Source: Pacificoceanicola onchidii
Lineage (GTDB): Bacteria > Pseudomonadota > Alphaproteobacteria > Rhodobacterales > Rhodobacteraceae
Length of the DNA: 64,000 nt
Assembly: GCF_004804335.1 (NCBI RefSeq)
Contig: NZ_SRXY01000010.1
Location: forward strand, 108,595-172,594
Direction of reading: 5' to 3'
This document shows positions 11,131-62,430 of the stretch, one piece after another. Position numbers and translations under genes: made by a program. How positions within the stretch are numbered: the first letter of the stretch is position 1; every line of letters starts with the position of its first letter. The notes below the pieces were generated by a model. The model was given only the letters and a program-made list of their open reading frames with translations. It was not told the origin of the DNA and did not search any database.

Positions 11131-11132
11131 GC

Positions 11133-35319: not shown

Positions 35320-35674
35320 TAGGCTGAATAGTAAGTCCGGTATGGGTTGGAGAATCGGCCTCACGAGTATTGCTAGCAAGTTAGTCGCAGGTTCGGCACG
35401 ACTATGCTGCTGGTTCTCAATGAGTCCAGGTCCAAGTTACCGCTGTCAACGGCTTTAATACGGGTGCCCGTTTTGCTCGAAATCGATTGACTGAGAACGA
35501 TTTGATGGCAGCCAATGACCGCAATCAAAGCTTCGCAGTCACTCCTTCCAGATGCAGCATCTGGAACTATGGGCTCTGACCGGACCTCAGATGCGACGCA
35601 GCATCCTGTGATATGATGGCAACGTCAACGTCGGGTTGTCGTTGTGGAGGGCATGGCGGATCGGAGGATCAGTC
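35320..35674. other. Non-coding gap before recombinase copy 1
   Basis: Carries a GCAGCATCTGG..GGCTCTGACCGGAC block (about 35559-35590). The last 70 nt (35604-35674) are nearly identical to the sequence before recombinase copy 2, including TGTGATATGAT, a candidate extended -10, and the GGAGG ribosome binding site. Confidence 0.55.
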
Positions 35675-42534: not shown

Positions 42535-43029
42535 GGAAAAAACCTCAAAAAAGGCGAATCGAATTATCGACAAATAACCTCTAGATTGTACCAAGAATTT
42601 TGCTTCGGTATAGTCTCGAGCCGTGTGTCCCTGAAACGATCTTGGGGCAGTTTGACAAATCTGCCAGAAGCAAGCCTAGCAAATTGATCGACAACACATC
42701 GCTTTGCTCGGGTCGCAATAATCGAAATGACGCAGGCAAAAGGCAACGTCGGGCGACGCCCGGCGTGGCGCAACTACGGGAGCTTAAGGGCTAGCCTTCC
42801 GCTTCTGCTAACGCACAACAGGACGACGGGGTTTGTGAAACGGTTCGATCACGCGCTTCGGTTGTGCATTGTTTCTCCTTAGCCCCTAAACTACCCATCG
42901 CTGTACCGCATACGACGACTGTTTTGGGCTCACTGCCGACTTCCGAGGCAGTGCAGCAACCGTGTGATATGGTGCCCTGTCAACGTCGGGTTGTCGTTGT
43001 GGAGGGTATGGCGGATCGGAGGATCAGTC
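42535..43029. other. Non-coding gap before recombinase copy 2
   Basis: About 495 nt. The first part holds the CHAT-operon promoter zone. From 42955 on it is a near-copy of the region upstream of recombinase copy 1, preceded at about 42918 by GGGCTCACTGCCGAC, again related to the block at 35570. Confidence 0.5.
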
Positions 43030-43662
43030 ATGGAAACACCAAACTTACCAGCCATTCGCGCGCTACGACCCGCATGGAACAAGGGTCGGATCGTCGGCCA
43101 GAAACGACCGTTGAAACCAAAGCATGTCTGGGCGATCCGGGTTCGACTTGAACTGGCTGAAAACCATCGCGACCTCGCGCTGTTCAATATGGCGATCGAC
43201 AGCAAGCTGCGCGGTTGCGATCTGGCCAAGTTGAAAGTCGTTGACGTCATGGCGTCCGGCCAGATCAAAGAGCGTGCTTCCGTTCTGCAAAGCAAGACGC
43301 AGAAACCTGTTCGCTTTGAGATTTCCGAAGGCACACGCGCCTCTGTCGAAAAGTGGATGGAAGACGAACTCATGGTCGGTTCTGAGTATCTATGGCCAGG
43401 CCGTTTCCATGAACGTCTGCACATCTCAACCCGCCAATATGCTCGCATTGTCAGGGACTGGGTGACATCAATTGGGCTGGAAGCCAGCGCTTACGGCACG
43501 CATTCGATGCGGCGCACCAAGGTTACACAAATTTATAAGAAGACAGGAAACCTTCGCGCTGTTCAGCTCCTGCTCGGCCACACAAAGATGGATAGTACAG
43601 TCAGGTATCTTGGGGTCGAACTAGAGGATGCTCTCGCCATCGCTGAAGCCATTGAAATCTAG
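43030..43662 (+). CDS. Tyrosine recombinase, copy 2
   Basis: 210 residues from ATG 43030, GGAGG upstream. All catalytic positions are intact: Arg61, Lys near 89, His158 and Arg161 (HSMRR), His184 (LLGHTK), Tyr193 (VRYLG). About 14 differences from copy 1. Same orientation as copy 1, 7.36 kb apart, with shared upstream sequence and a similar 3' hairpin. Probably the ancestral or active copy, because it retains Leu before LGHTK. Confidence 0.92.
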   Translation: METPNLPAIRALRPAWNKGRIVGQKRPLKPKHVWAIRVRLELAENHRDLALFNMAIDSKLRGCDLAKLKVVDVMASGQIKERASVLQSKTQKPVRFEISEGTRASVEKWMEDELMVGSEYLWPGRFHERLHISTRQYARIVRDWVTSIGLEASAYGTHSMRRTKVTQIYKKTGNLRAVQLLLGHTKMDSTVRYLGVELEDALAIAEAIEI

Positions 43663-44774: not shown

Positions 44775-45440
44775 TTAAGTTTTCCAAGGCAATCGAGACT
44801 TACCACACTTACACGAAATCGCTTTCTCACCGGGCACATCAATATCTGCGCGAATATGGCGGCCACAATGCTCGCAGACAAAGAGGGCGACCAGTTTCTC
44901 GATATCTTCCAGCAACACATCAATGTCCTCGCCGACAATTTTGCCGGCGTTATCGTGAGAGACCAGATTGGCGATGAGGGCCGAGCCTGCCAGATCGGAG
45001 AAGATTTGCGTCGCCAGCAGATCGGGCGACTTGTCCTTCAAAGTTGATCTCAGCGCGCTGATCAGCTCATCGGACAATCGCTTTTCGTTTATGTCGTTGA
45101 AGCGGAAGGCCACTTTGACCTCAAGAGCCTGGCAGATGTTCTTGAGGACAAGCTCCAGTAGCTTGCGTAGGTCATTGGAAACGTCTTCCTTGCCCTTTTT
45201 CTGTTCGATGATTTCTTTCAGCGTCGCGGGGCTGTTTTCGAGAAGGATGCCATTTGCACCGTCTGACCGGACCTCATGAAAAACCCAGCCATGCTGCCCC
45301 ATTTCCCTTTTGATAATGTCGAACCAGATATTCTCGTGCGTGAGGATGATAATTTGCCAATCGGAGAACTCGTCGCGCAAAAGACGTAAGAGCCTGCGCC
45401 GGTGCGATATATCGAAGCTTGTGACGATATCGTCGAGCAC
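44775..45440 (-). CDS. C-terminal part of the SMC-like ATPase, out of frame
   Basis: 221 residues. It begins exactly at Walker B (VLDDIVTSFD) and continues through the LTHEN H-loop; it ends in a zinc-ribbon CEHCG..CKCG. It is the missing C-terminal lobe of the upstream ATPase, displaced by one base at a T-run (minus-strand AAG TTT TAG near 45438-45446). Without a frameshift it cannot form a nucleotide-binding domain alone. Confidence 0.85.
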   Translation of the reverse strand: MLDDIVTSFDISHRRRLLRLLRDEFSDWQIIILTHENIWFDIIKREMGQHGWVFHEVRSDGANGILLENSPATLKEIIEQKKGKEDVSNDLRKLLELVLKNICQALEVKVAFRFNDINEKRLSDELISALRSTLKDKSPDLLATQIFSDLAGSALIANLVSHDNAGKIVGEDIDVLLEDIEKLVALFVCEHCGRHIRADIDVPGEKAISCKCGKSRLPWKT

Positions 45441-47170
45441 TAAAACTTGGCGTGCTTGTTGAAAATGCGTGCGTTGGCGAGGAACAGCACCACACCAAGG
45501 CTATTCAGGTGACTTTCGCTCAAATATTTACGTGGCGGCTGGGTCGCCTTGCCATGGAAAGTGTACTGGAACTCGACACCTTCATCGCCGACCATAGTCA
45601 GGCGCACTTTGTCCACGCTCTCTTTGGGATGAAGTGCGGTGTAGAACTTCCCGACATCATCGCTGATGGTATCCAGCACTGCTTGCAGTGCCCCATTCTG
45701 AACCTTGATGAAGGCATCCAGCATCGAGGAAAGGGTTATGACTTGGGCTTCATAAGCACCCTTTATGTTTTGATAGCTCTCAAAGTCGTTCACCTGATCG
45801 CTGACGGTTTTGAGCCTGGTCAGCGCAGCGGCGACCTTCTTTTCCAGCTCCGTGAGCTGCAGTTTCTTCGCGGCTTCTTTGGCTTGCTCCGCAGCCGTTT
45901 CCGATTCTGCACGCAACGCCTTCAGTTCGGTATCGAAACCAGCCGGTGCCTCGAATACCTTTTTGTCGTCAAAGGCGGATTTCAGCTCTTTCAGATAATC
46001 GCGCAACTTGGCGCGCGCAGACTTAACAGCCGCGATCAGCGAAGAAAAATCCTTCAGATCGGAATACGTCTCCATGATGGTTTTCGTATTAAGGCCCGCG
46101 TTGATGACGGTCTCGGCAAGCGCATCCTTGAGCGTGCCTGCTTCATCGAGCTGCTTCTGCAACGCCTCTAACGCTTCAAGGCGCTTGCCGACCTCTTCTT
46201 GAAGTTGGGCAAGCTCATAGGGCAACAAACAAAACGGGCACTGCGGATCGGTAAAGACTTCGTCGTCCAGGACGGCCTTGCCGCGCGTCAGAAAGTCACT
46301 GAGCCGAAGCTTGTTGACGTTTTCGTTCTCTTTAGCGAGGGCGTTGTATTTGTCCGTAAATGCTGTGGCATCATCGGAGAGTTGATCAATGTCGGCGACC
46401 AGATCACTGCAAGCCTTTTTAAGCTGCGCAAGTCGTTCTGCCAGTCGTATCTTTTCTTCACTGCTGCCCTGTCCCCTTAGCTCTTCTAAGGCCTCAATGT
46501 AAGAATCTTCGTCAGTAACTTCAGTATTAAGATCAAATGGCTTAATGACCTTGGCGGCCACGTCGTAAAATTCTTTTCTGTTAGGAACAACCTGCTCTAC
46601 TTCCGCGATCATCCCGGACTGAAGACGCTGAATCTGCTGTTTTGCGGTCGTGTAATCAGTTTCTTTTTCGAGCTGGTTCTTTGTTTGCAAAAGGACGTTT
46701 CTAAATTTCGTGATCTCGCTATAGCCGATAATATCGGCAATGGCCTCACGCTTTCCGCCTTTTGTTTTGTCGAGAAAGTTAACAATATCGGCATGCCTGA
46801 GAATAATATTGTCACCTTTCAGATCAGCAACAAGCTGCTCCGCATTGTCATTGGCAAAGGTGGCCGAGGTCTTCAGCGCGTCCGACAGCGCTTTGGTTCC
46901 GTTGCGGTCAGTGCCGTCAAATACCAGCTCCACAGAGCTGGGGTTGTCGTCTGCTAGCACATTGCGCAGCGAGTCCTGCTTGCAGTCCTCCCGCCACAGG
47001 TGGTCCACGCGGTCATGAATGAACCACTCCAGGGCATCTGTAATAGTGCTCTTGCCCGACGCGTTCTCACCGAAGATCGCAACGCTCTTCGTTTTCTTCG
47101 AAAAATCGAGGGGCAGCTCGAAACGTGCGCCGCGAAAGCGCGAGACGGTGATCTTGCGAACTTTAGTCAT
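45440..47170 (-). CDS. SMC/Rad50-like ATPase, N-terminal part with zinc-hook motif
   Basis: 576 residues from ATG 47170. Walker A FGENASGKST (residues 33-42) opens an AAA_15/AAA_23-type ATPase lobe. A long coiled coil (about 170-500) is centred on CPFC near residue 310, resembling the Rad50 zinc hook. The ABC signature region (YLSESHLNSLGVVLFLA) is at the end, followed immediately by KHAKF and a stop. The Walker B half is in the -1 frame in the next ORF. Together the family would be about 800 residues. Overlaps the small acidic gene by 8 nt. Such ATPases are frequent in phage-defence loci. Confidence 0.85.
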   Translation of the reverse strand: MTKVRKITVSRFRGARFELPLDFSKKTKSVAIFGENASGKSTITDALEWFIHDRVDHLWREDCKQDSLRNVLADDNPSSVELVFDGTDRNGTKALSDALKTSATFANDNAEQLVADLKGDNIILRHADIVNFLDKTKGGKREAIADIIGYSEITKFRNVLLQTKNQLEKETDYTTAKQQIQRLQSGMIAEVEQVVPNRKEFYDVAAKVIKPFDLNTEVTDEDSYIEALEELRGQGSSEEKIRLAERLAQLKKACSDLVADIDQLSDDATAFTDKYNALAKENENVNKLRLSDFLTRGKAVLDDEVFTDPQCPFCLLPYELAQLQEEVGKRLEALEALQKQLDEAGTLKDALAETVINAGLNTKTIMETYSDLKDFSSLIAAVKSARAKLRDYLKELKSAFDDKKVFEAPAGFDTELKALRAESETAAEQAKEAAKKLQLTELEKKVAAALTRLKTVSDQVNDFESYQNIKGAYEAQVITLSSMLDAFIKVQNGALQAVLDTISDDVGKFYTALHPKESVDKVRLTMVGDEGVEFQYTFHGKATQPPRKYLSESHLNSLGVVLFLANARIFNKHAKF

Positions 47171-47384
47171 CACCTTCCTCCGCTGCGCCCGCCACATCAG
47201 CCTTGAGTGCGGCCTTGCGCGCCTCTTCCAGCTTGCGTAGCAGCTTTACCTTGCTTAAATCATCTTCCTTTCGAAGCTTGCTGACAGCGGCCACGGTGTC
47301 AGCATCGAGGGATTCGTCGTTAACCTGGGTGTCGAGGAACTCGGTAATGACCTCGGTTGCTGTCTTGACGTTTTCGGTGGTCAA
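47163..47384 (-). CDS. Small acidic helical partner of the SMC-like ATPase
   Basis: 73 residues from TTG 47384, with AAGGGGA 6-9 nt upstream. Helical throughout (ADTVAAVSKLRKEDDLSKVKLLRKLEEARKAAL), ending AAEEGDD. The 3' end overlaps the ATPase start by 8 nt, so the two are co-translated. In size and position it resembles the middle component of ABC-type three-component systems (comparison to a described defence class, not proven here). Confidence 0.7.
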   Translation of the reverse strand: MTTENVKTATEVITEFLDTQVNDESLDADTVAAVSKLRKEDDLSKVKLLRKLEEARKAALKADVAGAAEEGDD

Positions 47385-47412: not shown

Positions 47413-47856
47413 ATGAGAATATTATTCACGCAAACGTACAATCTTAGCGAGCAAGAAATCAAGTTTGTTCGCGGTGTTGCGGGCATCTACTTTATCTATT
47501 TGACCGAAAGTGAAATCGCGTATCCCTTTGCGAATTCAAAGCTGATTTACATTGGGATGAGCGAGTCAAAACAATACGGCCTTTTCAAGAGGCTTGGCGG
47601 CCATTTGTCCGGCCAATCCGGCAACATGGGAATTAGCAACTACGCAAAAACGCAGGGAGTGAAGTTTACGTACTACTCTGCAGAAGTTCTCAGGAACTAC
47701 GGAAATGAGAACCTTTTTGACATTGAAAGCTTCTTCTTGAGCGATTTTCTCAAACACTATGGTTGCTTTCCCATTTGCAATGGCTTGTCTGGTCACAAGC
47801 CGTCTGAACATTCGAATCCTATTACGGCGGACGTTGATTGGTCGTTCTTCAACTGA
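47413..47856 (+). CDS. GIY-YIG nuclease domain protein
   Basis: 147 residues from ATG 47413. GIYFIYL at residues about 24-30 and LIYIGMS near 45-51 are the two signature strands; RLGGHLSG follows with the usual Arg. A downstream Glu in DIESFFL may be the metal ligand. Single-domain protein. Divergent from the ATPase pair with only 28 nt between the start codons, too little for two separate promoters. A nuclease effector beside an SMC-like ATPase suggests a joint defence role (inference). Confidence 0.72.
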   Translation: MRILFTQTYNLSEQEIKFVRGVAGIYFIYLTESEIAYPFANSKLIYIGMSESKQYGLFKRLGGHLSGQSGNMGISNYAKTQGVKFTYYSAEVLRNYGNENLFDIESFFLSDFLKHYGCFPICNGLSGHKPSEHSNPITADVDWSFFN

Positions 47857-48056: not shown

Positions 48057-49295
48057 ATGAGTGAGCAAACTGTAGGTTTTCAACTTACAAGAGTGATCTA
48101 TGAAAAGTTGCGGCTCTTGCCGCTATTGCTGAAACAGCCCCTGCGAGAATTCGAAATGACATTTGAGCCAGACACCCGCTATGCGAGATCCAAGCTTCGA
48201 GATGCTCCCACAGATCTACCACATGATCTCGCGAGCGTCATTGAGTACCGCAAATCGGGCCTCAGTCTCAATCACATAGTAGGGTGCCCACTCGAATGTG
48301 CGTACTGCGTTCGCCATCTTTTCGACAACTATGAAATGAAAAGACCTCATCTGGTTTTGTCTGATGATGAGGCGGTAGCACAGCTAGTTGATCATCCCGC
48401 ATTTCGCGCCCACCAGACACCATTACAAATCTTTAACAGAGCGACAGATCCGTTCCTTCCTAGAGTGAAGGAACATCTACACCGATGTCTGGAGCTACTC
48501 GATGATCTGGGTTTGACGAACCATATGCTGGTTATCACCAGATGGCATGTCTTAGAGGAAGATGTTGCTCGGTTGGAACGGCTCAAGAACCTCAAAGTCA
48601 CAATATTGATCACGTGGTCTGGTATTTCTGACCCTCGCATTGAGCCTATCGACAGTTCAATTGCTCACAAGTCTCTGCAGACTCTCGCATCCTGCGCTTC
48701 CCGCACACGCCGAATTCTCTATTGGCGCCCAATTGTCCTCGGGCTGAACGATTCAGACGAACTGATTGCGGAGGCCCATTCCATGAGCCGGTTTGCAAAT
48801 GCGACGGTTTTCACTGGCCTCTTCCATAGAGAGCAGATCAGAGACTATCTTCGATCGGTGAATGTACCGGATCTATATGAGATGGTGCCTCGCCGGAAGA
48901 TTTTTCCGCGGGAAGTTGAAGACCGGATTCTAAAAGCTTTCGGAAACACACCAATATTTCGCAAGACGTCTTGCGGGGTAGCGTATGCGCACAAAGTTCA
49001 CGATTATAACGGCCACATCGGGATAGATCGCATTTGTGATATTTGTCCAGGTGATCAGGTCAGAATTTGCACTGCTGCCCACAAGGTTCCTACCCGAAGT
49101 CAGTTGCTTGGATTTGCAAAAGAAGTTGGTCTTGAGACAGATAGTATAGAAGCGTTTGAAGGCCATATCGTCGTTGAAAATAGCACGGAGCAACAGCGAT
49201 ACTTCGTTCAACACGCAACAGGGTTTCAAGTGCATGACCGAGCTCACCCGCATTTGCCGGGTCGTCATGGTCGCGCGGAAGAAGGATGGACATAA
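48057..49295 (+). CDS. Radical SAM protein, SPL-like
   Basis: 412 residues from ATG 48057. The 4Fe-4S motif CPLECAYC (Cx3Cx2C) is at residues 77-84, followed by a TIM-barrel-like sequence (LQIFNRATDPFLP, LVITRWHVLEEDVARLE) that resembles spore-photoproduct-lyase-like and other nucleic-acid-related radical SAM proteins. Extra cysteines near residues 325-338 (CDICPGDQVRIC) could hold a second cluster. First gene of a four-gene operon; its stop overlaps the next start as TAATG. Substrate unknown; nucleotide or nucleic-acid chemistry is suggested by the neighbours. Confidence 0.82.
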   Translation: MSEQTVGFQLTRVIYEKLRLLPLLLKQPLREFEMTFEPDTRYARSKLRDAPTDLPHDLASVIEYRKSGLSLNHIVGCPLECAYCVRHLFDNYEMKRPHLVLSDDEAVAQLVDHPAFRAHQTPLQIFNRATDPFLPRVKEHLHRCLELLDDLGLTNHMLVITRWHVLEEDVARLERLKNLKVTILITWSGISDPRIEPIDSSIAHKSLQTLASCASRTRRILYWRPIVLGLNDSDELIAEAHSMSRFANATVFTGLFHREQIRDYLRSVNVPDLYEMVPRRKIFPREVEDRILKAFGNTPIFRKTSCGVAYAHKVHDYNGHIGIDRICDICPGDQVRICTAAHKVPTRSQLLGFAKEVGLETDSIEAFEGHIVVENSTEQQRYFVQHATGFQVHDRAHPHLPGRHGRAEEGWT

Positions 49296-49876
49296 TGAAA
49301 CGCATGTGGGCTGTCGATGTTGAGGGCAACGGAGCTACGCCACCAGAGATTATTGAGTTAGGAATCGTTGAGATGGACGACCTCCGACTGACAGGGAAGG
49401 TGATGCATTGGCAATTCAAGCCGCAACACGAGATCACGCCCATCGTTAGCAGGATTCATGGGATTACGAATGATGATGTCGCCGATGCTCCCCCACTCGA
49501 AGACGTTGTGGACGACATCTTACTCTGGCTTGAGGACTCTCCAATCGTTGGCCACAATGTTCGGGTCGAATTGGAGGCGCTCACTAGAGTTCTACCAGAT
49601 TGGAAACCGGCGGCGGCCTACGATAGTTTGAAGGTCGCACGTAGGATGCTACCGAACGAAGAAAAATTTGGCTTGGAGCGGCTCGGAGATGTGCTCAGGC
49701 TCAAGGACGCGGCGTCTCAAGCGGTCGGCGGTGGGGTGTCACATTCGGCCCCATATGATGCCGCTATGTCTGCTATCCTACTGGAGCATTTACTTGCACC
49801 GTTATCGCAGGCCGAACGAGACAGTATATTGATGGATGCTGACGTCACCAACTCTAGGCAGGGGACGCTTTTGTGA
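49295..49876 (+). CDS. DnaQ-like (DEDDh) 3'-5' exonuclease
   Basis: 193 residues from ATG 49295, with AAGGA nine nt upstream and TAATG overlap with the radical SAM gene. Exo I is AVDVEGNG (Asp8, Glu10) and Exo III is HSAPYDAA with His and Asp five apart. Exo II reads GHNVRVELEAL, where the expected Asp of HNxxFD is Glu. It would degrade single-stranded DNA or RNA ends or short oligonucleotides from the 3' side. Stop overlaps the next GTG. Confidence 0.82.
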   Translation: MKRMWAVDVEGNGATPPEIIELGIVEMDDLRLTGKVMHWQFKPQHEITPIVSRIHGITNDDVADAPPLEDVVDDILLWLEDSPIVGHNVRVELEALTRVLPDWKPAAAYDSLKVARRMLPNEEKFGLERLGDVLRLKDAASQAVGGGVSHSAPYDAAMSAILLEHLLAPLSQAERDSILMDADVTNSRQGTLL

Positions 49877-50445
49877 CTCGCGTCGTGAAAATTGCAGTTG
49901 CCGGGACCCATTCCACTGGAAAAACGACCTTTATGAAGGATTTGGAGAAAAGGTTGATCGAGGCTGGTCATGTCGTCGCTTATGTACACGACAGTGCGGC
50001 TGAGGCGCGTGACGTCGGCTTTCCAATCTTGAGCAACCATACGTTTGAGAGTACCGCTTGGTTGATCGCGCAGGCAATTCGTCTTGAGACAGCAGCAACG
50101 CTAAAAGCAAATGTTATCCTCATTGACCGTCCAGTTCCCGACGCTCTTGGGTATTTGATTGCTGCTCTGCGTACGACAAATCGTTCTATCGACCAACAGC
50201 GATTGGAACGCCTTGAAGCCATCTGTGAAGCTTGGGTGAAAGAGTATGATCTAATTTTTGCGACACGACTTGACGAGAATATACCCATTGGGCCGGGTCG
50301 CGATGATAACCACGTTTTCAGGTCCGCTGCCGGCAAGGCGGTCGCCGAGGTAATGGCAAAGCTTGCCCCCGAACACTGTATTCTCACACCAGAGAATTTC
50401 GAAGAATCTATCGCCTTATCCATACGTTTGGCCTCTGGAAGATGA
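49873..50445 (+). CDS. P-loop nucleoside/nucleotide kinase-like protein (AAA_28 / NadR-like)
   Basis: 190 residues from GTG 49873 (GTGA overlap). P-loop GTHSTGKT at residues 11-18, then DRPVPDALGYLIA as Walker B/DRx region and a C-terminal Arg-rich lid. AAA_28/NadR kinase domains phosphorylate small nucleoside-like substrates. The position after a radical SAM enzyme and exonuclease fits handling of a modified nucleotide (inference). Confidence 0.75.
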   Translation: MTRVVKIAVAGTHSTGKTTFMKDLEKRLIEAGHVVAYVHDSAAEARDVGFPILSNHTFESTAWLIAQAIRLETAATLKANVILIDRPVPDALGYLIAALRTTNRSIDQQRLERLEAICEAWVKEYDLIFATRLDENIPIGPGRDDNHVFRSAAGKAVAEVMAKLAPEHCILTPENFEESIALSIRLASGR

Positions 50446-51392
50446 GCGTGCCCTCGCACGCTATTGCCCATCTACTTTCTACCGTTGCTGGCTCCCATCG
50501 GATTGGTATCGGGTGCATGGCGCTTACTGGACTATATGGGAGGATCGCCGAATCCGATGCACGTGATGTGTTGGACCGTGCAATGGATCTTGATTTCCGT
50601 CTTTTTGATACGGCACCTTTGTACACAGACGGTCAGAACGAAGAGTTGATAGGTGATGTCATTGGATCAAAGGCTGGCATAACGGTATCCACCAAATTCG
50701 GCCTTTCGGAAGACAATTGCGGTAAACTTGTTCGAGATAGTCGGCCCAGCTCGATCCGCGCATCAGTAGAGGCATCACTTAGACGATTGCGTCGAGAGCG
50801 GATTGATATCCTGATCCAACATCGTCCCGATCCGGACGTAAATGACCAAGAGGTTGCTGGTACTGTGCAGGACCTTATCGATGCAGGTAAAGTTGCATCC
50901 TTTGGTCTCTCAGGAACGTCAGTTAACCGCATTAAGCCGATGTCGGAACGTTGCAGTGTTACTGTGGTTCAAAATGAACTTTCAGTCTTAAGCGACCCAA
51001 ACTCTTGGTGTACGCCTCAAAAGGTCGGAGATATGGGCGTCTTCTTTATGGCTTATGCGCCGTTCGCGCGGGGCCTATTGAGCCAGAAAAAAGCGGGCAC
51101 CAACCGCGCAGCCGACGATTACCGTGCGCAGATGAAAGCGTTCCAAAATCCCGAACAGTCGGCCCACAAAAGACTTCGGGAGTGTATCGAAGACGTTGCA
51201 TCGGCCTATGGTGTTTCAGCGACCGCAGTCATGTTAGCCTGGGCTAAATCTCGTGGTGAGAATGTTGTACCTATTCCTGGGCCACGCCATAAATCACATC
51301 TTGCCAATCTGATAGAAACCACCAACCTTGAAATCCAAGATGCTCAAATTTTGACGATTGATGAGATTGCGAGTAACTTACAGGTGGGCTAG
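50442..51392 (+). CDS. Aldo/keto reductase
   Basis: 316 residues, ATGA overlap with the kinase gene. The (beta/alpha)8 AKR tetrad is present: Asp56 and Tyr61 (FDTAPLY), Lys85 (VSTKFG), His127 (LIQHRPD). The NADP-binding C-terminal IPGPRHKSHLANLIE also matches. It reduces a carbonyl using NAD(P)H. As last gene of the operon it may finish or reverse a modification made by the radical SAM enzyme (inference). Ends 7 nt from the convergent PLD-like gene. Confidence 0.9.
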   Translation: MSVPSHAIAHLLSTVAGSHRIGIGCMALTGLYGRIAESDARDVLDRAMDLDFRLFDTAPLYTDGQNEELIGDVIGSKAGITVSTKFGLSEDNCGKLVRDSRPSSIRASVEASLRRLRRERIDILIQHRPDPDVNDQEVAGTVQDLIDAGKVASFGLSGTSVNRIKPMSERCSVTVVQNELSVLSDPNSWCTPQKVGDMGVFFMAYAPFARGLLSQKKAGTNRAADDYRAQMKAFQNPEQSAHKRLRECIEDVASAYGVSATAVMLAWAKSRGENVVPIPGPRHKSHLANLIETTNLEIQDAQILTIDEIASNLQVG

Positions 51393-51399: not shown

Positions 51400-52638
51400 T
51401 CAGCTCAACTCAGGTGCAGGGCCGTCTTGTAGACTACCGATCCAACCAACACCCGTTAAACGGATCATCAGATGATGATTTGCTCGTTCAGGCGCGGCAG
51501 GAAGTGAGAGCTTTAGAGGATCGACATATTTCTTGATGACCTTGTTGTACGGAGAGACTGCAAAGGATGCATTTTCCATAGATGGACCATCCACCAAGTT
51601 AGCAGAGCCACTGAAAACCTCGCATTGGTCACCAATGCCGATGTATACTTTGGCGTGAAAATCTTGCTTTTTATTGCCGGTGGCCACGATCTGATTTTCG
51701 AGGCCGTAACTTGCCAAGACGTCGTGATCCAAACCAGTTTCTTGGAGAGCCGATTTATAACCTGACCACGTTGCAGAGCGTGTTAAAAAAACGGTTCGTT
51801 TAGCATCCAATTGTTTCAAGAGACGTTCCCAAATCTCTAGTTTTTCGCTCTTGGATTTCCATTGATGACCCACGAACGGTGCAGCAATGAGGACTTGATC
51901 CTTGTATAAACGCCATCTCACAATGAGTTTGTCTAACGCGTCCATCAAATAGGACTTGGTATGTATCCCACTTAATACGTCGGCCAGGTTAACTCCTGAG
52001 ACGTCGGCCAGTAAAAATCCGTCCAACTCGAGACTGGCATTCGGATCAATTTGGAAAGGGCGATAAAAAGTAGCCACGTGAGTTTGGGAGCAGGAGCACG
52101 GCACCTTGATCGAGACGAGCAGATGTTCAACCTCTGGCATCCGACGCGCGAGATAGTTGTTTAGGATAATCCCCCATTGCTGTCTAATATCGCCAATGGC
52201 TGCGACAAGCTCAGCTAGAGCGGCCTTTTCCAAGCCTTCATCGGTTTCGGCACAGCAGTAAATCGGGTGAACATTGAAGTCGAATACCGGATCTTCATCA
52301 TTGATAGCGAGCCGATACACGGCCCTGTCCGTGGCGTATTCTACGGATCCAGCATAGGGATCTTCTTCGTCGTCATAGCGCTCAATAACCCGACAATTAC
52401 CTGCTGGCGATTCAATAGGATTTTTCAAATCGACGGCAAATGTTTCACTGCACGCATTGCACTTGATGACCCAGGTTCCTCGGTCGTTGACCATAGGAAA
52501 CTTCAGCTCAGTGTAATGGTGCGGGTCACCGCAATGGGGACACTTCGCGGCGTAATTCTTGCGTTTGGTTTCAAAAGCTTTTGGAAGGCTCAATATCTGA
52601 CATCCACAAATAGGAAGTTTCATACATCGGAGACACAC
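51400..52638 (-). CDS. PLD-like nuclease with N-terminal zinc ribbons
   Basis: 412 residues from GTG 52638, preferred to ATG 52623 because it includes the CLRC..CGC cysteines that pair into a zinc knuckle; a second CPHC..CNAC ribbon follows within 75 residues. The C-terminal third has a single HKD-type motif, FHAKVYIG then FSGSANL (near residue 326), as in phospholipase D-like nucleases. Zinc ribbons would give nucleic-acid binding. Convergent with the radical SAM operon, so not co-transcribed, but in the same low-GC block. Confidence 0.72.
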   Translation of the reverse strand: MCLRCMKLPICGCQILSLPKAFETKRKNYAAKCPHCGDPHHYTELKFPMVNDRGTWVIKCNACSETFAVDLKNPIESPAGNCRVIERYDDEEDPYAGSVEYATDRAVYRLAINDEDPVFDFNVHPIYCCAETDEGLEKAALAELVAAIGDIRQQWGIILNNYLARRMPEVEHLLVSIKVPCSCSQTHVATFYRPFQIDPNASLELDGFLLADVSGVNLADVLSGIHTKSYLMDALDKLIVRWRLYKDQVLIAAPFVGHQWKSKSEKLEIWERLLKQLDAKRTVFLTRSATWSGYKSALQETGLDHDVLASYGLENQIVATGNKKQDFHAKVYIGIGDQCEVFSGSANLVDGPSMENASFAVSPYNKVIKKYVDPLKLSLPAAPERANHHLMIRLTGVGWIGSLQDGPAPELS

Positions 52639-52813: not shown

Positions 52814-54826
52814 CTATCGGGCAACCAGCTTCTGACCACCAACCTCTCGCAACATCGCTTCCATGTCGTCCAAGCCATCGACAGCGGAGCGCATTTGCGC
52901 CTCACCCCCGGCGCTCGCTGCCTCGGCATCCGTGACTTGGCTCCCAAAATTCATCTCCATCTGTCGTTGTTCCTCGGCGACAACGGCTTGAACGACGGGC
53001 GTGGTCTTCTTTGAGGCGACATTGGCTTTCTCTGACGATTGGCCATCAGCAGCCTGGCGTACGGCCTCAACGTCGACCTCGGGTCCGCTTGACCCGTCCG
53101 GAGAGGGTGTCATCGGCATCGCGCGCATACTCAGCGGCAGATCACCTTCCGGCCCACCTCCACCTGGCTCCGGAAACGGCAGCTCACCCGTCTGCGCCGC
53201 GTGGATCGCTTTGAACAGCCGATCGTCGAAATATTGGATCCGCTTCGCGCGGACCGGCATCTGGGCATCGATCACCATGACGATCTCGTCGAGCGGCAGG
53301 CGGCGCGCCTCATCTTCTGGCAACAACGAGCTTTCTTCAGTCCGTGTCGATTGGCTGCGCCCCTCGAAGGGGTTCTTGCCGATGGACTGCGAACGCGTGA
53401 CCACGGTCTTCGTGGTCTTGCCGACCGCCTTGCTCAACTCCTCGACGGTTTTTTCATCGGAAGGCGTCAGGTAGAGCTTTACGCCAGCGTTGCCCTGCAG
53501 GGCACGGCGGGTGTTTTCGCCATAGATTTCATCGAGGGCGGGGATAGTTTGGGTAACGACCGCCAAGTGCCCGCGATAAGCGCGCAAAGTCTCAATGCTC
53601 TCGACCACGATCGGCATTTTGCCTAAGCGATTGAACTCGTCGAGCATGATCATTACGGGCCAAGGTTCATCCGGCCCGGGATCCTTCTCCTGCATGGCTG
53701 AGAGGAGATCCGAGAAGAACAGCCTGATCAGCGGCGCGAGCGGTTTCACCATCAGCGGCTGGACCACGAGATAAACAGAAAAGGGCTTCTTGCGGATCGT
53801 CCGGAAATCAAAGTCCGACACCGCCGTCGCCTCATCGATCGCCGGGTTCTGCCATTGGTCGAGCCCCGAGGTCATCAGGAGCGAAACGTATGAGGTCAGC
53901 GTGTCGTTGTTGGTCGAGGCGAGCCGCGTGAAAATCAGCTTTGCTGCCCTGTTCTCCACCTCGTGGCCGCGTGCGAAGTATTCCTTCTGCTTGTTCCCAC
54001 CCGATGCGGCGATGCGGTAGATCTCGCCCAAGGTCGGGCGCTTGCGCTGGAACGCCAACAGGCCTGCCGCCACGAAGAGATCGATCCCGCCTTTCAGAAG
54101 CCCTTGCACCCTGTCGTTGTCACTTTGCAGGAAGAGCGTCGCGAGGAGCTGCAATTCCATCTGCTGGCGCGCAGGATCTTTCAATTGATAGATGCGCAGG
54201 AGTGGGTTGTAGCGATGCGTGCGCTTGCCCTCCCAATCGGTGGGGGCAAAACGATAGACCTTGTCGCCCTGGGCGGCGCGGTGCCGGGCCGTGGCCTCAA
54301 AACACTCCCCCTTCACATCGAGCGTGACGGCGGAGCCCCGCCAGGTCAGCAGGTTCGGAATGACAAAACCCGTGGTCTTGCCGCGACCCGTGGGGGCGAC
54401 AATCAGCGCGTGTGGGAAGACCTTCGAACAGATGTATTTTGCGCGGGAGCCGGGCGTCCCAAGTTTGCCGAGAATGAACCCGGTGCCGGGTGCGCCAAAG
54501 AACCCGTTGGCCTTCATCTCGCGCGCGCTCTGCCAATGGGTCTGGCCAAACCGTGTCAGGGCGGCTCCCGACAGCGCGAGGCTCAGCATCATGCCGGCGA
54601 CGGCAAAGCTGCCGATGATCAGGTGGATGAGTTGGGCATCCTCCGGGCGGCGATCGAGGATCGCCATGTAGTTCTGCGCAATATAGGCAAAGTCGATCTC
54701 GGCCCCGAAGCCGAGATCCTGGTAGGTCAGCACCGCCGAGGCGATGGTGTAGCCCATGGCCCCGGTCACCAGCGTCACGAGCAAGACACCCGTGGCGATC
54801 CGGGCTTTGCCCATGGCGCCGCTCAA
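52814..54826 (-). CDS. virD4: VirD4/TraG coupling protein
   Basis: 670 residues from TTG 54826 (TTGA overlap with the relaxase stop); ATG 54814 is the alternative. Two N-terminal membrane helices (residues about 10-35 and 65-88), Walker A APTGRGKTT near residue 143 and Walker B VMIMLDEFNRLG near 388. It feeds the relaxase-DNA complex to the T4SS channel at the inner membrane. The acidic C-terminal tail is long. GC-rich and intact. Belongs with the virB block at 11.7-18.3 kb. Confidence 0.95.
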   Translation of the reverse strand: MSGAMGKARIATGVLLVTLVTGAMGYTIASAVLTYQDLGFGAEIDFAYIAQNYMAILDRRPEDAQLIHLIIGSFAVAGMMLSLALSGAALTRFGQTHWQSAREMKANGFFGAPGTGFILGKLGTPGSRAKYICSKVFPHALIVAPTGRGKTTGFVIPNLLTWRGSAVTLDVKGECFEATARHRAAQGDKVYRFAPTDWEGKRTHRYNPLLRIYQLKDPARQQMELQLLATLFLQSDNDRVQGLLKGGIDLFVAAGLLAFQRKRPTLGEIYRIAASGGNKQKEYFARGHEVENRAAKLIFTRLASTNNDTLTSYVSLLMTSGLDQWQNPAIDEATAVSDFDFRTIRKKPFSVYLVVQPLMVKPLAPLIRLFFSDLLSAMQEKDPGPDEPWPVMIMLDEFNRLGKMPIVVESIETLRAYRGHLAVVTQTIPALDEIYGENTRRALQGNAGVKLYLTPSDEKTVEELSKAVGKTTKTVVTRSQSIGKNPFEGRSQSTRTEESSLLPEDEARRLPLDEIVMVIDAQMPVRAKRIQYFDDRLFKAIHAAQTGELPFPEPGGGGPEGDLPLSMRAMPMTPSPDGSSGPEVDVEAVRQAADGQSSEKANVASKKTTPVVQAVVAEEQRQMEMNFGSQVTDAEAASAGGEAQMRSAVDGLDDMEAMLREVGGQKLVAR

Positions 54827-57135
54827 TGGACCTGTCCCCGCTCGGTTTCGCCATCCACGTCTGTCGCGCGGTGTTTTTCGTATTCGGCGTCGGCGAGTTC
54901 GTCGACCACCTGGCGCAAGGCCTCGGTGTTGGCCGTCACGGCATCGGATTGCAGATAGACCTTGGCGACATAGAGCCGATCGAGGCGGTCCTCGAGAACC
55001 TTGTCCAGCGCGTCGGCACCGCCGGATGTGAGCCGCTCGACTTGACGGTCATCCAGTACCCGCGCGATCTCGCCGCGGAAGGCCTCCCGCTCCGCCTCGG
55101 TTTCGAAGGGCGCGGACAACTCCCCCGCCCGCTCATGGTCAAGGACACGCGCAATCTCGACTGCAACACGGTCGGTATGGTCAGATTGCGGCGCGGTTTC
55201 GTCGCGCGCCGCGAGAACTTCGTCGCGTGTGCCAGCCCCAATCCCGCCGCGTAACTCGGTTTCGCGGCGGACCTGATTGATGGCTTCCGTATCCCGTATC
55301 TCCACGACGGCGGCATAGGTCGCGCCAAGCCCGCGGGCGAGGTGGGACGGCATGTCCGGATAGCGCGCTCGCAAGTCATCCGTGACAGCATCTGCAACGG
55401 GCGTGCGGACGTCGCGTCCCTCCATGATCCCGTCGACTTCACGGGTTATCTCACTGGCGCGGGCCGCAACGGTGATGGTCTCCCGGTATGGCTCAGGGCG
55501 TGCGAGCAGGTCTGGGTGTGCCTCGAGATACGCGCGCTGTTCGGTCTCGATCCGGCGCTCTGCCTTTGAGACCAACTCCCACTCCCGGTCCTCGATCTGT
55601 TGCGCGGTCAGGCCGTCTGCGCGCATCTCCTGACGGATTGTCCCTTCCATCGCCTGCACCGCGTCAAGGTGATAATGGAACCGCTCGCTGACCGGTTCCG
55701 CTTCCACGACGCCATCCAGGCGCAGTACGTTCTCCCGTTCCAGAAGCGTGCCAAGTTTCACATGCACGTCATTGAGAATGTCGCGCGCCTGTTCCAGATC
55801 GGCGCGGCGTTCGAGGTTCAGATCCAGCGCCTCGGACACCTTGGAGAGATCATCGGCGATCCATTGGTGCTCCAGCGCTGCATTGGAGGCTCCGGTCTCA
55901 ATCCGGGCCACCACTTCCGATGTGCTGATCCCGGTGCCGCGCAGCGCGGCGTCAATGCGCGCTCTCAGATCGGGCTCGGCCAGACGCTCAAGCTGGTTGG
56001 TGTCGATGTTCGCCTCGGAATAGATCCCGCCCTCCGAGGGGGTCTCTGAAAGTGCGGATGATCGCAAACCGAGTGGCTGCATGTGCTGGACCTGCGTCTG
56101 GATTTCGATGAGGCGTTTTTCCAGCACGGGACGTTCGGCGTCAGACTTCTCGGCGATCATGCCCTGCACCCGTGCGAGCTTCTCCGCATAGAGGCTTCTC
56201 AGGTCCTCGAAACTTTGATCCTCGGCCATGTACACATCTCCTGTTCGGTCCACCTGCCCGCCCCGCGCCAGCACCTCGCCCGCGCGAAAGAGGGCTGCGG
56301 CGATATCCTCGCGGGCCTCGCGCGAAGCCTCCGCAGCGAGTGAATGGTAAACGGTTCTGGTGTTGGCGATCTCCGCCAGCGTCCGCGTCAGGTCCTGCCC
56401 CACTCGTTCGCGCTCGCTGGGCGCGCGACCCTCTTCTTTCGCCGCATAAACTTCGCTGGTGCGGGCCGGGTAATGCACAACCCCGCGATCCACCCGGCGC
56501 GTGGCCTCCAGGCGCACGCCGTACTTCTCCGCCTCCTCGACCATGGCGAGGCGGAAATCGTCATAGTTGAAGCGATGGTTGCGCCCCAGAAAGAAGAACT
56601 CGCCTTCCTGCGAGCGGCGGTTCAGCACCAGATGCGCATGCGGGTGATCGCGGTCCTCATGCACCGCGATGATGTAGTCGAAATGCCCCGCATCGGTCTG
56701 GAAAAACCGCTCGGCCACATCCGTCGCGATATCGCGCACATCCTCGCCCCGCGTGCCGATGGGGAAGGACATGAGCATGTGCGTGGTCTGGCCAAGCTTG
56801 GGTTTGAAGCCTGCATCCCACCGCTTGGCAAAGCGCTCGGTCAGATCCTTGATGTCACGCGCCTCGAGCTTCGCCTTGCCATCCAAAAACCCACTCGAGT
56901 CCACGATATGGGTGGACTTTGTGGTAAGGTAATCGAGCTGGTTTGCGAGCTGCGATTTGGTATGCGTGCCCCCGCCCCGGATTGCCTTGAAGACGGCTGG
57001 CCGATGCCCTGCCGCCGCGCGCACAAGCTGGCTCTGCTTGGCGACATGCAGCCCCTGCATCGAGCCCCGGATCCGGCTCCAGCCATCCCGGAAGACCTCG
57101 CCGGTGACAGCGTCAACCGCATCATTCAGCCGCAT
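54823..57135 (-). CDS. virD2: VirD2-family relaxase
   Basis: 770 residues from ATG 57135. The relaxase domain fills the first 250 residues. The metal-binding motif VHEDRDHPHAHLVLNRR starts near residue 157 (HxxxxxHxHxH), and the catalytic tyrosine candidates are near DYLTTKS (about residue 70). The C-terminal 500 residues are helical and highly charged. It nicks oriT and pilots the strand through VirD4 and the channel. Its start overlaps the MobC-like gene by 14 nt and its stop overlaps virD4. Confidence 0.92.
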   Translation of the reverse strand: MRLNDAVDAVTGEVFRDGWSRIRGSMQGLHVAKQSQLVRAAAGHRPAVFKAIRGGGTHTKSQLANQLDYLTTKSTHIVDSSGFLDGKAKLEARDIKDLTERFAKRWDAGFKPKLGQTTHMLMSFPIGTRGEDVRDIATDVAERFFQTDAGHFDYIIAVHEDRDHPHAHLVLNRRSQEGEFFFLGRNHRFNYDDFRLAMVEEAEKYGVRLEATRRVDRGVVHYPARTSEVYAAKEEGRAPSERERVGQDLTRTLAEIANTRTVYHSLAAEASREAREDIAAALFRAGEVLARGGQVDRTGDVYMAEDQSFEDLRSLYAEKLARVQGMIAEKSDAERPVLEKRLIEIQTQVQHMQPLGLRSSALSETPSEGGIYSEANIDTNQLERLAEPDLRARIDAALRGTGISTSEVVARIETGASNAALEHQWIADDLSKVSEALDLNLERRADLEQARDILNDVHVKLGTLLERENVLRLDGVVEAEPVSERFHYHLDAVQAMEGTIRQEMRADGLTAQQIEDREWELVSKAERRIETEQRAYLEAHPDLLARPEPYRETITVAARASEITREVDGIMEGRDVRTPVADAVTDDLRARYPDMPSHLARGLGATYAAVVEIRDTEAINQVRRETELRGGIGAGTRDEVLAARDETAPQSDHTDRVAVEIARVLDHERAGELSAPFETEAEREAFRGEIARVLDDRQVERLTSGGADALDKVLEDRLDRLYVAKVYLQSDAVTANTEALRQVVDELADAEYEKHRATDVDGETERGQVH

Positions 57136-57715
57136 GGGCAAACTCCCTCAAGGCGGCTGAGGCCTGCAGCTGCATCGCGTCACGACGGCGGCGCAGGAGC
57201 AGATCGATCTCGTCGGCGGAATCCAGGATGAACCGCGCCAGCCCGCGCATCTGCGCGAGGCGCAGTTCCGAGAACTCGGCACGCGTGCCTCCCCCGGCCC
57301 CCTGACCCATCCGGTTGGCCCGCGTCATCTGCTTGGCGATCTGCGCGACCCCATTGCCGACCTCGTGCAAGGAGGCCCTGTAGCGCGCCATCTCGGCCGC
57401 CATCTGCGCGTCCGGAACGAACACCCCGCCCGCCGCCTGGATGAGCCGCCGCAGCCCCTCGGCCCGGCTCTCGATCCCCGCCTTCGCCAACACCGCGTCG
57501 AGCGCCTCAAGCTCCGCAGCCGTGACCTTCACACTGACTGCTGAGACCGGGATCGCGGCATCCGTCTGGCGCTCTGCATCGGCTTTCAGGACGTAGCGCA
57601 CGGCCCGTGATGTGACCTCGAAACGCTCGGCCAGCTCAGACGTCGACACACCCTCCGCGGCCTCGCGGACGATCTGCATCTTCTCCATCTCTGTCAGGCG
57701 TTTCGTTCGGGACAT
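57122..57715 (-). CDS. MobC-like relaxosome accessory protein
   Basis: 197 residues from ATG 57715. Helix-turn-helix at residues about 8-40 (MEKMQIVREAAEGVSTSELAERFEVTSRAVRYVL), then a ribbon-like region (VSVKVTAAELEALDAVLAKAGI) and LHEVGNGVAQIAKQMTRANR, the MobC-type pattern before the relaxase. It probably binds oriT and assists the relaxase. First gene of the mobC-virD2-virD4 operon. The HTH fused in front is longer than in classical MobC. Confidence 0.82.
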   Translation of the reverse strand: MSRTKRLTEMEKMQIVREAAEGVSTSELAERFEVTSRAVRYVLKADAERQTDAAIPVSAVSVKVTAAELEALDAVLAKAGIESRAEGLRRLIQAAGGVFVPDAQMAAEMARYRASLHEVGNGVAQIAKQMTRANRMGQGAGGGTRAEFSELRLAQMRGLARFILDSADEIDLLLRRRRDAMQLQASAALREFAHAAE

Positions 57716-59760: not shown

Positions 59761-60801
59761 CTAGCTCCCAAGGATTGCCTTGGTCCCCGGCATCCGTTTC
59801 AATGAGTTCCCAATATGCTCCCGCCAGCGCGGGCCGACCTCCAGCGCGGTGGCATAGGCGCGGGCCAGATCATCGGGCCGGTCCTCAGCCATCGCCTCAA
59901 TCAGGAAAGCCGCCTGCTCCCGATCCTTCGCCGATTTGAGGCTCCCCGCTCCGTCCCGCCGCCGATCTGCAATGATCAGCTTGTGGATTGCATAGCGCTC
60001 CGGGCGCGGAACCTGGAGCAGTACGCCGGATCGATAGATTGCCGCCGCATGGATCGGCTCGGCAATCAGGAAGTTGAGATAATTCAACGCTTGGGCGTTC
60101 ACGCCCAAGGCGGGCAGCTCTCGAATGGTCTCATCTCCGAACGCCGGGGTCAGGAATTCGACCAGCTGGCCACTGCCGCCTTGGGCCCATCGCCAGGTCC
60201 GACCTTGGTCGAGTGCCGGCAGGGGATCAAACTTGAGCGCCGAGAACGTCTCGGCGAGACCAGGGTCAACCTGATCCTGCAGCGCCACGCTGAGCTTTTC
60301 GAACTGGGCGATGTCGATGTCGCCGGTATTGGCCATACCCCCCAGGGGCAAACGAACACCAAGCTCGCCTTCATAAAGCCGGAACGCGTTCGTCCCGACG
60401 ATGGTACCACCCAGCCGGAAGGTTCCGGCTGCAGCCATGGCCGACAGGATGGAACCGGTCGCCCGGTCGGTCGGTGTCATGCCTTCGGCCCGCAGAAGTC
60501 GAACGAGTCGCGACCGCTCTGCCTGCCGCGCCTTGGCGGTCGCGCGCAGCTCTTCGATCCGGTCGATGCGCGCGCGCGTCTCTTCGCTGTCCTCGCCGAT
60601 ATAGATGAACTGCATCTCGGTTCCGACACGGCGCGCGGCGTACCAATAGCCCTTGTCACCGCGCTCCTTGAGCGTGGGCTTGCCTGCGACACCGGACAAG
60701 ACGTCATCCTTCAGGAGACGCACCAGATCGGTATAGGCGCTCATCGCGATGCTGCTGAGAGGTGTCATGCCAATCATTTCCAAGTTTTGCTTGGCACGCA
60801 T
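59761..60801 (-). CDS. GSU2403-family nucleotidyltransferase-fold protein
   Basis: 346 residues from ATG 60801; TTG 60819 and ATG 60768 are alternatives. The nucleotidyltransferase motif is AGTFRLGGTIVGTNAFR (GG/GS helix) with the two acidic ligands in TGDIDIAQF about 30 residues later, as in NTP_transf_8. A helical N-terminus precedes it. Proteins of this fold transfer NMP groups; in plasmids and islands they may be toxins or antitoxins, but its target is not known. It is convergent with parE. Confidence 0.8.
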   Translation of the reverse strand: MRAKQNLEMIGMTPLSSIAMSAYTDLVRLLKDDVLSGVAGKPTLKERGDKGYWYAARRVGTEMQFIYIGEDSEETRARIDRIEELRATAKARQAERSRLVRLLRAEGMTPTDRATGSILSAMAAAGTFRLGGTIVGTNAFRLYEGELGVRLPLGGMANTGDIDIAQFEKLSVALQDQVDPGLAETFSALKFDPLPALDQGRTWRWAQGGSGQLVEFLTPAFGDETIRELPALGVNAQALNYLNFLIAEPIHAAAIYRSGVLLQVPRPERYAIHKLIIADRRRDGAGSLKSAKDREQAAFLIEAMAEDRPDDLARAYATALEVGPRWREHIGNSLKRMPGTKAILGS

Positions 60802-60900
60802 ATACCTATCAAAACACAAAATTGCTAGGCAAAGAAGTTTGGAGAACCGCCACGCCTATGAGAAACAACGAAAAGGCCGCCCGAAGGCGACCCTCTCAAT

Positions 60901-61830
60901 TCACTTCTCAACAGACTTCTTCGCCGGGTCGGCAACCCTCATGACCGTCAGGCCTTTCGATTCCGCCTTCTGCCCGAGGTTCAGCGCGACCCCGTTGCCG
61001 CCGAAGAGAACAACCCCCGTCGCCGCGAACTTGTCGTCCAGCATTTCGTCGTTGCACTTGAACGGTGCCGCCCGCCCATGCGCGGACCAGCGCGGATCGA
61101 AACGCGCCTGTGCTATCCCGCGTGCCCGTGCCCATCGTGCTGCAATCATCTCCGCCCCATGCTTGCCACCCTTGTGACAGAGGAAGATCTCCTGATTGCG
61201 GTTCTGCCTGATCCGTTCGCGAACCTTGTCGAGCGTGTTGAAGATCACATCGACATCGGTCCAGTCGGTGGCGCCTGAGACGATCAGGGGCACCCCCTCG
61301 ACTTTCGACTTCTCGGCAGTCTCGCGGTCGTGCTGCTCCAGAAGCTGCCGCGCCTCGAAGACCGCCCCGGTCTCTTGCGCCCGGACGCTCGCACGCGACC
61401 CGGAAGCCGGGATGAAGGCGTGGCCCGTCTCGATCTCGTAGCATTCCGCCGCCGCCTCGCTCATCACCTCGATGGCGCCGACAATCTCGCGCAGCTGCAG
61501 AAAGCGCGCCTGCGCTTCTTCTAGCGCGGTCTCGGCGATCTCCGATCCGTCGTGGGATTTTGCCAGCGCGCCGATCTTGTCGGCGGTGCGGTCGACCTCC
61601 TTGCCAAGCGACACCTTGCGGCGCTGCAGGATCGTCGCGAGCCCGTGGGCCAGCGGTTCGATTTCCGCTTCAAGCCCGGTCCCGCGCAGCGGACCGAGCA
61701 AAGTCTCGAAGCTTTCGCGGATGATGCGATCGGTCAGGATATGATCCTCCGGGATCGGCAGCTGCGCGTCCTTCTCGGTCAGCCCGAAAAGCTCGATCGT
61801 CTCGTAAGTGTTCGCGTTGTCGTAAGCCAT
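60901..61830 (-). CDS. DUF2493 (SLOG-superfamily) plasmid protein
   Basis: 309 residues from ATG 61830, with GGAGA upstream. Residues 1-190 are helical, and the C-terminal DUF2493/YspA-like domain contains PLIVSGATDWTDVDVIFNTLD, FLCHKGGKHGAEMIAARWA and GVVLFGGNGVALNLG, the Rossmann-like SLOG pattern for nucleotide-derived ligands. Common in conjugative plasmids of Rhodobacteraceae. Function unknown; a ligand-sensing role is possible. Confidence 0.85.
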   Translation of the reverse strand: MAYDNANTYETIELFGLTEKDAQLPIPEDHILTDRIIRESFETLLGPLRGTGLEAEIEPLAHGLATILQRRKVSLGKEVDRTADKIGALAKSHDGSEIAETALEEAQARFLQLREIVGAIEVMSEAAAECYEIETGHAFIPASGSRASVRAQETGAVFEARQLLEQHDRETAEKSKVEGVPLIVSGATDWTDVDVIFNTLDKVRERIRQNRNQEIFLCHKGGKHGAEMIAARWARARGIAQARFDPRWSAHGRAAPFKCNDEMLDDKFAATGVVLFGGNGVALNLGQKAESKGLTVMRVADPAKKSVEK

Positions 61831-62430
61831 GTCTGGTCTCCAGTATTCGGTTGTGGAGCCACCACGTGAGTGTGGGGGCATGGCCGAATGCCTGGTTTCC
61901 GAATCTGCCCGGGTCAGGGACGGCGCAGCCGCCGGCTTGCCGGGCGCAAAAGTTTTCCGAGCGCAGCACCCGACACAGGCCCGCGCTCACGCACGGGACC
62001 GCCCCGCGCCACGGGCTCTGCCCTCGCCGAAAAGTTTTGCGATCCTTGACGCGGGCTGATTTGGGGGCCATCCGGAGGATATGCTTCCACACTCATGTGT
62101 GTGTGTTTTGACGGTAGGTTTGCCCGACCCGAGAAGGCAAACGGCCCGACCGGACGCGGGAGACGGATGAAGCGGCGGGATCGTTTTGCCCCGCAAAACA
62201 GACCAGAGCGCAATCCGGCGGAGCGGCCAGGGAGAAACGTGCTCGCGAGGCGGGCAAACCGGGACGCCAAGCGCAACGCCGCGGTGAGGCCGCATGGCCG
62301 AATGCGCGACGGGCCGAAGGGCCGTTCAATCAATACGGCACGCGTAGCCTAGGAAGCGATGCCGGATGTTTCAAAACGGTTTTTACGCGCAATACCGCAG
62401 ACCGGCATCGGCTCCTTACAATGAAGCAAG
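61831..62430. other. Non-coding gap, right boundary of the conjugation module
   Basis: About 600 nt, GC-rich, no convincing gene. AAAAGTTTT occurs twice (near 61948 and 62030). A perfect 9-bp inverted repeat, CGATGCCGG (62357-62365) and CCGGCATCG (62402-62410), flanks a 36-nt spacer close to the LysE gene and could mark an insertion junction or a terminator. Confidence 0.4.

Follow-up and report, generated by a model that had tools for sequence, protein, structure and literature searches.

The DNA analyzed here is a window of 64,000 nucleotides from Pacificoceanicola onchidii (assembly GCF_004804335.1, contig NZ_SRXY01000010.1, positions 108,595–172,594 of the forward strand). We focus on an operon in this window that codes for a radical S-adenosylmethionine (SAM) protein, a DnaQ-like exonuclease, a P-loop kinase, and an aldo-keto reductase (AKR). 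Positions are those of the window unless another locus is named.

The four-gene operon and its proteins

The genes of the operon and their products are as follows (numbers after family names are E-values; aa, amino acids):

48156..49295, + strand, radical SAM protein, 379 aa; fold like spore photoproduct lyase (SPL) plus an extra C-terminal part; frame open from 48057
49295..49876, + strand, DnaQ-like DEDDh 3'-5' exonuclease, 193 aa; RNase_T 2.8e-14, PADLOC DEDDh 1e-23, motif conserved
49873..50445, + strand, P-loop kinase of the AAA_28 family, 190 aa; thymidylate kinase/NadR ribosylnicotinamide kinase fold
50442..51392, + strand, AKR, 316 aa; Aldo_ket_red 1.1e-55; optional fourth gene of the operon

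An earlier note on this DNA had described four open reading frames (ORFs) that overlap stop-to-start. They are present as claimed, with the junctions TAATG, GTGA, and ATGA in operon order, and only the start of the radical SAM gene had to be shifted. This start is probably 48156 rather than 48057, because the ATG at 48156 specifies the residue with which two close relatives (P0006 and P0010) start, and two others (P0005 and P0008) are 379 aa long, which is the length given by that start. The exonuclease frame has a second possible ATG at 49286, which is open as well. The G+C content of the operon, counted from 48156, is 50.6% as compared to 56.4% for the whole window.

The fold predicted for the first protein is that of a radical SAM enzyme, and the residues CPLECAYC (44–51) form the CxxxCxxC motif; the Pfam Radical_SAM match of the window protein is below the cut-off (E = 0.039). 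In the fold search SPL was nearest, covering residues 4–271 of 379. The 108 residues past this match hold four further invariant cysteines (C273, C294, C297, and C305), which probably bind a second metal center. All seven cysteines, three of the SAM cluster and four C-terminal ones, are kept in 91/91 radical SAM sequences, a count that excludes one distant relative (L097). PADLOC contained 0 families matching the window protein at E 0.1, and no NCBIfam model scored over its cut-off. The only NCBIfam candidate, radical SAM mobile pair protein B (TIGR04470, E = 0.0084), was rejected at 15.5 bits vs. a curated cut-off of 410 bits. Searching the PDB sequences with the radical SAM profile gave no meaningful match, and none of 50,697 phage records matched the window protein. 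A scan of viral contigs with this single sequence found none, and an alignment-based scan of viral contigs gave 10 matches, L088 among them. One label assigned to relatives in the protein search reads ‘DNA repair photolyase’ and is treated below solely as an alternative reading.

The active-site residues of the exonuclease are D8, E10, D/E92, H150, and D155. This DEDDh motif (D-x-E, D/E, H-x4-D) is intact in 87/87 exonucleases, with D (44 sequences) or E (43 sequences) as the second acid, and the window protein also matches the PADLOC family PDC-S48 (1.6e-16). The kinase, which is assigned to AAA_28 by Pfam (1.3e-9), contains the P-loop GTHSTGKT and the pair D85-R86, and the P-loop lysine is kept in 82 of 84 kinases. 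While thymidylate kinase and NadR are nearest in fold and a PHROG thymidylate kinase family was matched at 1.2e-8, the Pfam model Thymidylate_kin was not over its cut-off for the window kinase, and the PDB sequence search with the single kinase sequence returned no meaningful match. The AKR tetrad (D56, Y61, K85, and H127) is retained with 54–55 of 56 sequences keeping each residue. Neither the kinase nor the AKR had a PADLOC match below 0.004. Since the catalytic residues are conserved, we infer that the operon proteins are active enzymes.

Conservation and partner genes

The protein search yielded 2305 relatives of the radical SAM protein at E 0.001, with scoring restricted to the 7995 candidates sharing most words, and the best 120 relatives were listed. 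The scan of genome contigs gave 265 radical SAM relatives, of which 80 were kept; together with 10 matches from viral contigs and 6 of 39 plasmid records, they formed a set of 96 loci plus the window (97), in which partner genes were identified by profile searches. In this set, which was picked via the radical SAM protein and contains some loci cut by contig ends and some that are not independent (L084 and L093 seem alike), the radical SAM gene is accompanied by the exonuclease in 95/97 loci, by the kinase in 86/97, and by the AKR in 58/97. Further partners are a thymidylate synthase (TS) homologue (29/97), a nucleoside diphosphate (NDP) kinase (30/97), and an HD protein (6/97, the copy in L055 being on the other strand), as well as a DUF3800 protein and an unknown protein in 8 and 12 of the 97 loci, respectively. 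The exonuclease is missing from a Nostoc locus that has the radical SAM and kinase genes only (L005) and from the distant relative L097. The AKR gene is in pieces and partly antisense in L007, and no kinase separates exonuclease and AKR in L048. Annotated exonuclease and ATPase genes follow the radical SAM match in all eight of eight further plasmid records; in one of these, the Nocardia copy of the radical SAM gene (L144) looks broken, its frame holding one internal stop. Because the radical SAM and exonuclease genes occur together in nearly every locus and their catalytic residues are conserved, the four-gene arrangement is no product of chance.

According to the record titles, carriers belong to the Alpha- and Gammaproteobacteria, Actinomycetota, Cyanobacteriota (Leptolyngbya), Obscuribacterales, Acidobacteriota, Nitrospirales, and Myxococcota (Myxococcus). 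The spread is patchy: in a sample of the host family drawn from a larger group, the gene was found in 1/149 genomes, the host itself, and among Enterobacterales in 1/345 genomes, a Pantoea that was used as center. Protein distances correlated with those of the radical SAM protein for the exonuclease (r = 0.95), the kinase (r = 0.885), and the AKR (r = 0.93), with 0/999 permutations reaching such values; these correlations are not phylogeny-corrected and refer to 31 of 35 four-gene loci, after the removal of 4 near-duplicates and the prior exclusion of 6 loci with broken or odd genes. Both the patchy spread and the correlated distances suggest that the genes of the operon travel as a unit.

The partner genes narrow down the probable substrate. 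In the PDB, the TS homologue is matched best by CMP 5-hydroxymethylase (E = 4e-71), compared to only 7e-13 for a true TS, and in 26/26 sequences the catalytic Cys is kept and an Asp stands in place of the Asn of the TS motif PFNIAS. We take this Asp, as in dCMP hydroxymethylases, to mark cytosine over uracil. The putative hydroxymethylase thus shares sequence, catalytic Cys, and Asp with CMP 5-hydroxymethylase and differs in its placement, outside the window, in operons with radical SAM, exonuclease, and kinase genes. The catalytic His of the NDP kinase is conserved in 28/28 sequences. This kinase has about twice the usual length (345–353 aa) in loci of the actinobacterial type (L064, L067, L071, L075, L078, L081, L084, L090, L092–L094, and L143); for L143 alone, Pfam verified two NDK domains. 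In L039, the kinase slot is filled by a true thymidylate kinase (Pfam 4.2e-29), and L046 contains an ORF whose beginning nearly equals that of this enzyme. Additional members are a dCMP deaminase in L036 (7.8e-21) and L038 (1.3e-22), a MazG-like protein (below cut-off) following the AKR in L142 together with a multi-NUDIX protein on the other strand, and a deaminase and a RibD-type reductase near the operon of L144, again on the other strand. A weak likeness to dGTPase (4.5e-6) was seen for the HD protein. Taken by family, the partners of known affiliation are mostly nucleotide enzymes and point to pyrimidine nucleotides as the predicted substrates.

The DUF3800 protein, possibly another operon partner, is encoded about 130 bases 5' of the radical SAM match in seven alphaproteobacterial loci (L002 and L014–L019) and downstream of the kinase in L030.

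These data support the proposal of the earlier note, which could match the genes to no described pathway, that they are made together and serve the synthesis or processing of an unusual nucleotide, as nucleotide enzymes prevail among the recurrent partners of known family and the gene order is conserved. That note had named two observations that would speak against it, namely genes adjacent only in this genome and a radical SAM protein of a known housekeeping family. The order proved to be conserved across phyla, and the protein belongs to no named family over cut-off in Pfam, PADLOC, or NCBIfam.

Anti-phage neighborhood and local setting

Several copies of the operon have neighbors that were preselected by annotation or sequence and then confirmed by PADLOC: CBASS next to the Sinorhizobium meliloti copy, dGTPase and ThsB near the A. 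vitis copy, LmuA in Rhizobium B21/90, SduA and QatC in S. chiapasense, and PDC-S65 in a Pseudomonas (L061). For a broader comparison, 93 of 159 eligible ORFs, mostly long ones, were sampled from the flanks of 26 loci within L008–L035 (40,595 residues), and the control drew on three 50-kb stretches located elsewhere on three rhizobial plasmids, whose 100 ORFs were narrowed to the 93 longest (37,329 residues). The alphaproteobacterial flanks matched 187 PADLOC families at 1e-15 vs. 4 in the control, a comparison that counts families rather than proteins, so that one protein can match many, and that involves different genomes in control and test. Among the flank matches listed were CBASS, Septu PtuA, Gabija GajB, and type I restriction, and the control matches were mad3 in five members and mad8 and two PycC models in one each. 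On the basis of this neighborhood, an anti-phage role of the operon, at which the earlier note had merely hinted, is likely.

In the window, conjugation genes for a coupling protein and a MobA/VirD2 relaxase (52814–57141) flank the operon on one side and an ORF of the phage integrase family (42964–43662) on the other, and the operon therefore probably belongs to the cargo of a mobile element. Likewise, copy L088 lies between a HerA-type helicase with its partner ORF and a phage portal gene (3039–12567 of that locus) and is thus probably prophage cargo.

Other features of the window were observed around the operon. The integrase-family ORF at 42964–43662 (+) and a second one at 35636–36307 (+) are 93% identical over 223 residues. 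Both are situated upstream of the cargo region with about 7 kb between them and may have arisen by duplication at the border of the mobile element. A gene for an LmuB/SMC-like ATPase at 44775–47197 (−) is split over the abutting ORFs 45440–47197 and 44775–45440, the downstream one opening at a Walker-B-like LDDIVTSFD, and was probably interrupted through a frameshift or an assembly error. Just 5' of the operon, the ORF at 47413–47856 (+) encodes a protein of 147 aa that weakly matches GIY-YIG; the A. vitis copy (L139) likewise has a GIY-YIG protein before it. At 51400–52638 (−), a 412-aa protein with a zinc-ribbon-like N-terminal part and a weak match to the defense protein ZacB (E = 1e-4) is possibly the product of another defense cargo gene. 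Farther away, at 59761–61881 (−), a nucleotidyltransferase (NTP_transf_8) adjoins a YspA/SLOG protein, and a protein with the GSU2403-family nucleotidyltransferase fold is annotated near the Mesorhizobium copy (L141).

Proposed pathway, precedents, and alternatives

We propose that the product of this conserved but patchily distributed operon is an intracellular, modified pyrimidine nucleotide, likely a poison of phage polymerases, and that the exonuclease likely edits the analogue from host DNA; we give this reading an even chance. Kinase, radical SAM enzyme, and reductase together fit the synthesis of a modified nucleotide. The kinase would phosphorylate a (deoxy)nucleoside or its monophosphate. 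The radical SAM enzyme, equipped with the SAM-binding cluster and the probable second metal center, would then abstract hydrogen from the sugar or base and remodel the nucleotide, and the AKR, or elsewhere perhaps the HD or the MazG-like protein, would reduce or trim the intermediate. Host kinases, or the NDP kinase of the operon where present, could form the triphosphate for incorporation by phage polymerases. Finally, the DEDDh exonuclease would clear the analogue from host 3' ends; we read this enzyme as an editor because a near-constant DEDDh exonuclease would be odd for mere synthesis. In the actinobacterial form, a 5-substituted cytosine nucleotide probably comes from the CMP-5-hydroxymethylase-like enzyme. 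Several observations weigh against the proposed pathway. The DUF3800 protein (8/97) and the unknown protein (12/97) find no explanation in a nucleotide pathway, the annotations available for actinobacterial and Nostoc contexts name no anti-phage gene, and the operon matches no PADLOC model set.

A close functional precedent is viperin with its prokaryotic relatives, which form ddh-nucleotides: in both cases, here by prediction, a radical SAM enzyme acts on a nucleotide to counter viruses. Nucleotide kinase genes often lie beside those of prokaryotic viperins. However, the window protein matches no viperin model in PADLOC (0 at E 0.1) or NCBIfam (TIGR04470 only), both of which presumably hold such models. 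In the fold list viperin ranked lower than SPL and AbmM did not appear, which is no evidence for unrelatedness. An editing step has a precedent as well, since a coronavirus 3'-5' exoribonuclease is described in PMC9415739 as removing the product of viperin from RNA. With ThmABC of Photorhabdus, the producer of 4'-thiothymidine, the operon shares a minimal set of a radical SAM enzyme, a nucleoside or nucleotide kinase, and an enzyme that protects the maker, but the protector is a nucleoside triphosphatase in ThmABC (PMC12691670) and a predicted exonuclease here. Defense by nucleotide-modifying enzymes is also common to the DefensePredictor systems, as PMC13092281 reports thymidylate synthase, dNMP kinase, or 5hmdU-kinase domains in validated anti-phage systems; the words ‘radical’, ‘exonuclease’, and ‘aldo’ do not occur in the main text of that paper. 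Identity of the window kinase to the albomycin kinase AbmG is 14%, and thymidylate kinases and NadR score higher. The operon is not described in the passages on albomycin enzymes and radical SAM proteins in the review PMC9032320 and in PMC10853773, and literature searches, whose coverage left out many journals, gave no description of it.

A link to ThmABC was sought via matches to the dNK family in 345 Enterobacterales, 108 genomes of which had a match, 82 over the cut-off, and 16 regions were retrieved. Against three of these loci (L136, L137, and L138), the radical SAM profile gave no meaningful E-value, and thmABC itself was not identified by name. L136 (3136–5887) and L137 (2812–4634), the only two of the three covered by the Pfam scan, contain a gene for a 415-aa radical SAM protein directly 5' of a thymidylate-kinase-like gene, the pair in L136 being followed by an NYN/LOTUS protein; in L138 (4469–7470), a radical SAM-like ORF is flanked by two P-loop ORFs. 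These pairs appear to be parallel cases that lack a sequence link to the operon of the window.

The product could alternatively be a nucleoside antibiotic that is secreted against competitors, as 4'-thiothymidine is made by ThmABC, with the exonuclease as the resistance gene. The actinobacterial partner resembles CMP 5-hydroxymethylase, which we take to belong to a nucleoside antibiotic pathway, and some neighbors are labeled ‘natural product biosynthesis’. Moreover, ThmABC shows that making such a compound in E. coli takes no more than a radical SAM enzyme, a nucleoside kinase, and an enzyme for self-protection (PMC12691670). We nevertheless consider an antibiotic unlikely. A transporter is annotated inside the operon in 0/14 annotated plasmid contexts, whose gene tables are incomplete, which argues for a product used inside the cell; the alphaproteobacterial copies sit amid anti-phage genes, and the radical SAM profile is unmatched to the kinase-linked radical SAM proteins found in Enterobacterales.

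Still lower is the probability we assign to a modified base for the cell’s own DNA or RNA, or to a signaling nucleotide, in place of a poison. The CMP-hydroxymethylase-like enzyme, the kinase, and the NDP kinase resemble the supply side of such pathways, and the kinase fold is also near NadR. Yet the hydroxymethylase-like gene is present in just 29/97 loci, and no polymerase, glycosyltransferase, or modification-dependent nuclease recurred among the neighbor clusters, which derive from rough gene calls and of which few were identified. In addition, a near-constant exonuclease suits removal better than deposition. DNA repair, in which an SPL-like enzyme would repair a thymine lesion, the exonuclease trim ends, and the kinase salvage nucleotides, is highly improbable: the likeness to SPL in fold and CxxxCxxC motif ends at residue 271 of 379, leaving the C-terminal part with its invariant cysteines as an extra, the NDP kinase, hydroxymethylase, deaminase, MazG, and AKR partners have no evident part in photoproduct reversal, and the sporadic distribution in defense islands is unlike that of a repair gene.

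Under the proposed antiviral pathway, the operon would represent antiviral nucleotide synthesis, which is a known kind of defense, and the editing exonuclease would be its new element. More tentatively, and with rather low confidence, we suggest an unnamed immune pathway of several phyla in which a radical-made pyrimidine nucleotide poisons viruses, self and non-self are told apart by exonucleolytic editing of host DNA, and the second cysteine cluster might be consumed as the sulfur source of a thio-sugar nucleotide. If the proposed antiviral pathway is right, it would be a second radical SAM route to antiviral nucleotides beside viperin, spread across several bacterial phyla, and would show a new way for a cell to withstand the chain poison that it makes. 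New nucleoside analogues could then be obtained from such operons, and the taxon-specific exchange of partner genes would predict different products in different carriers.

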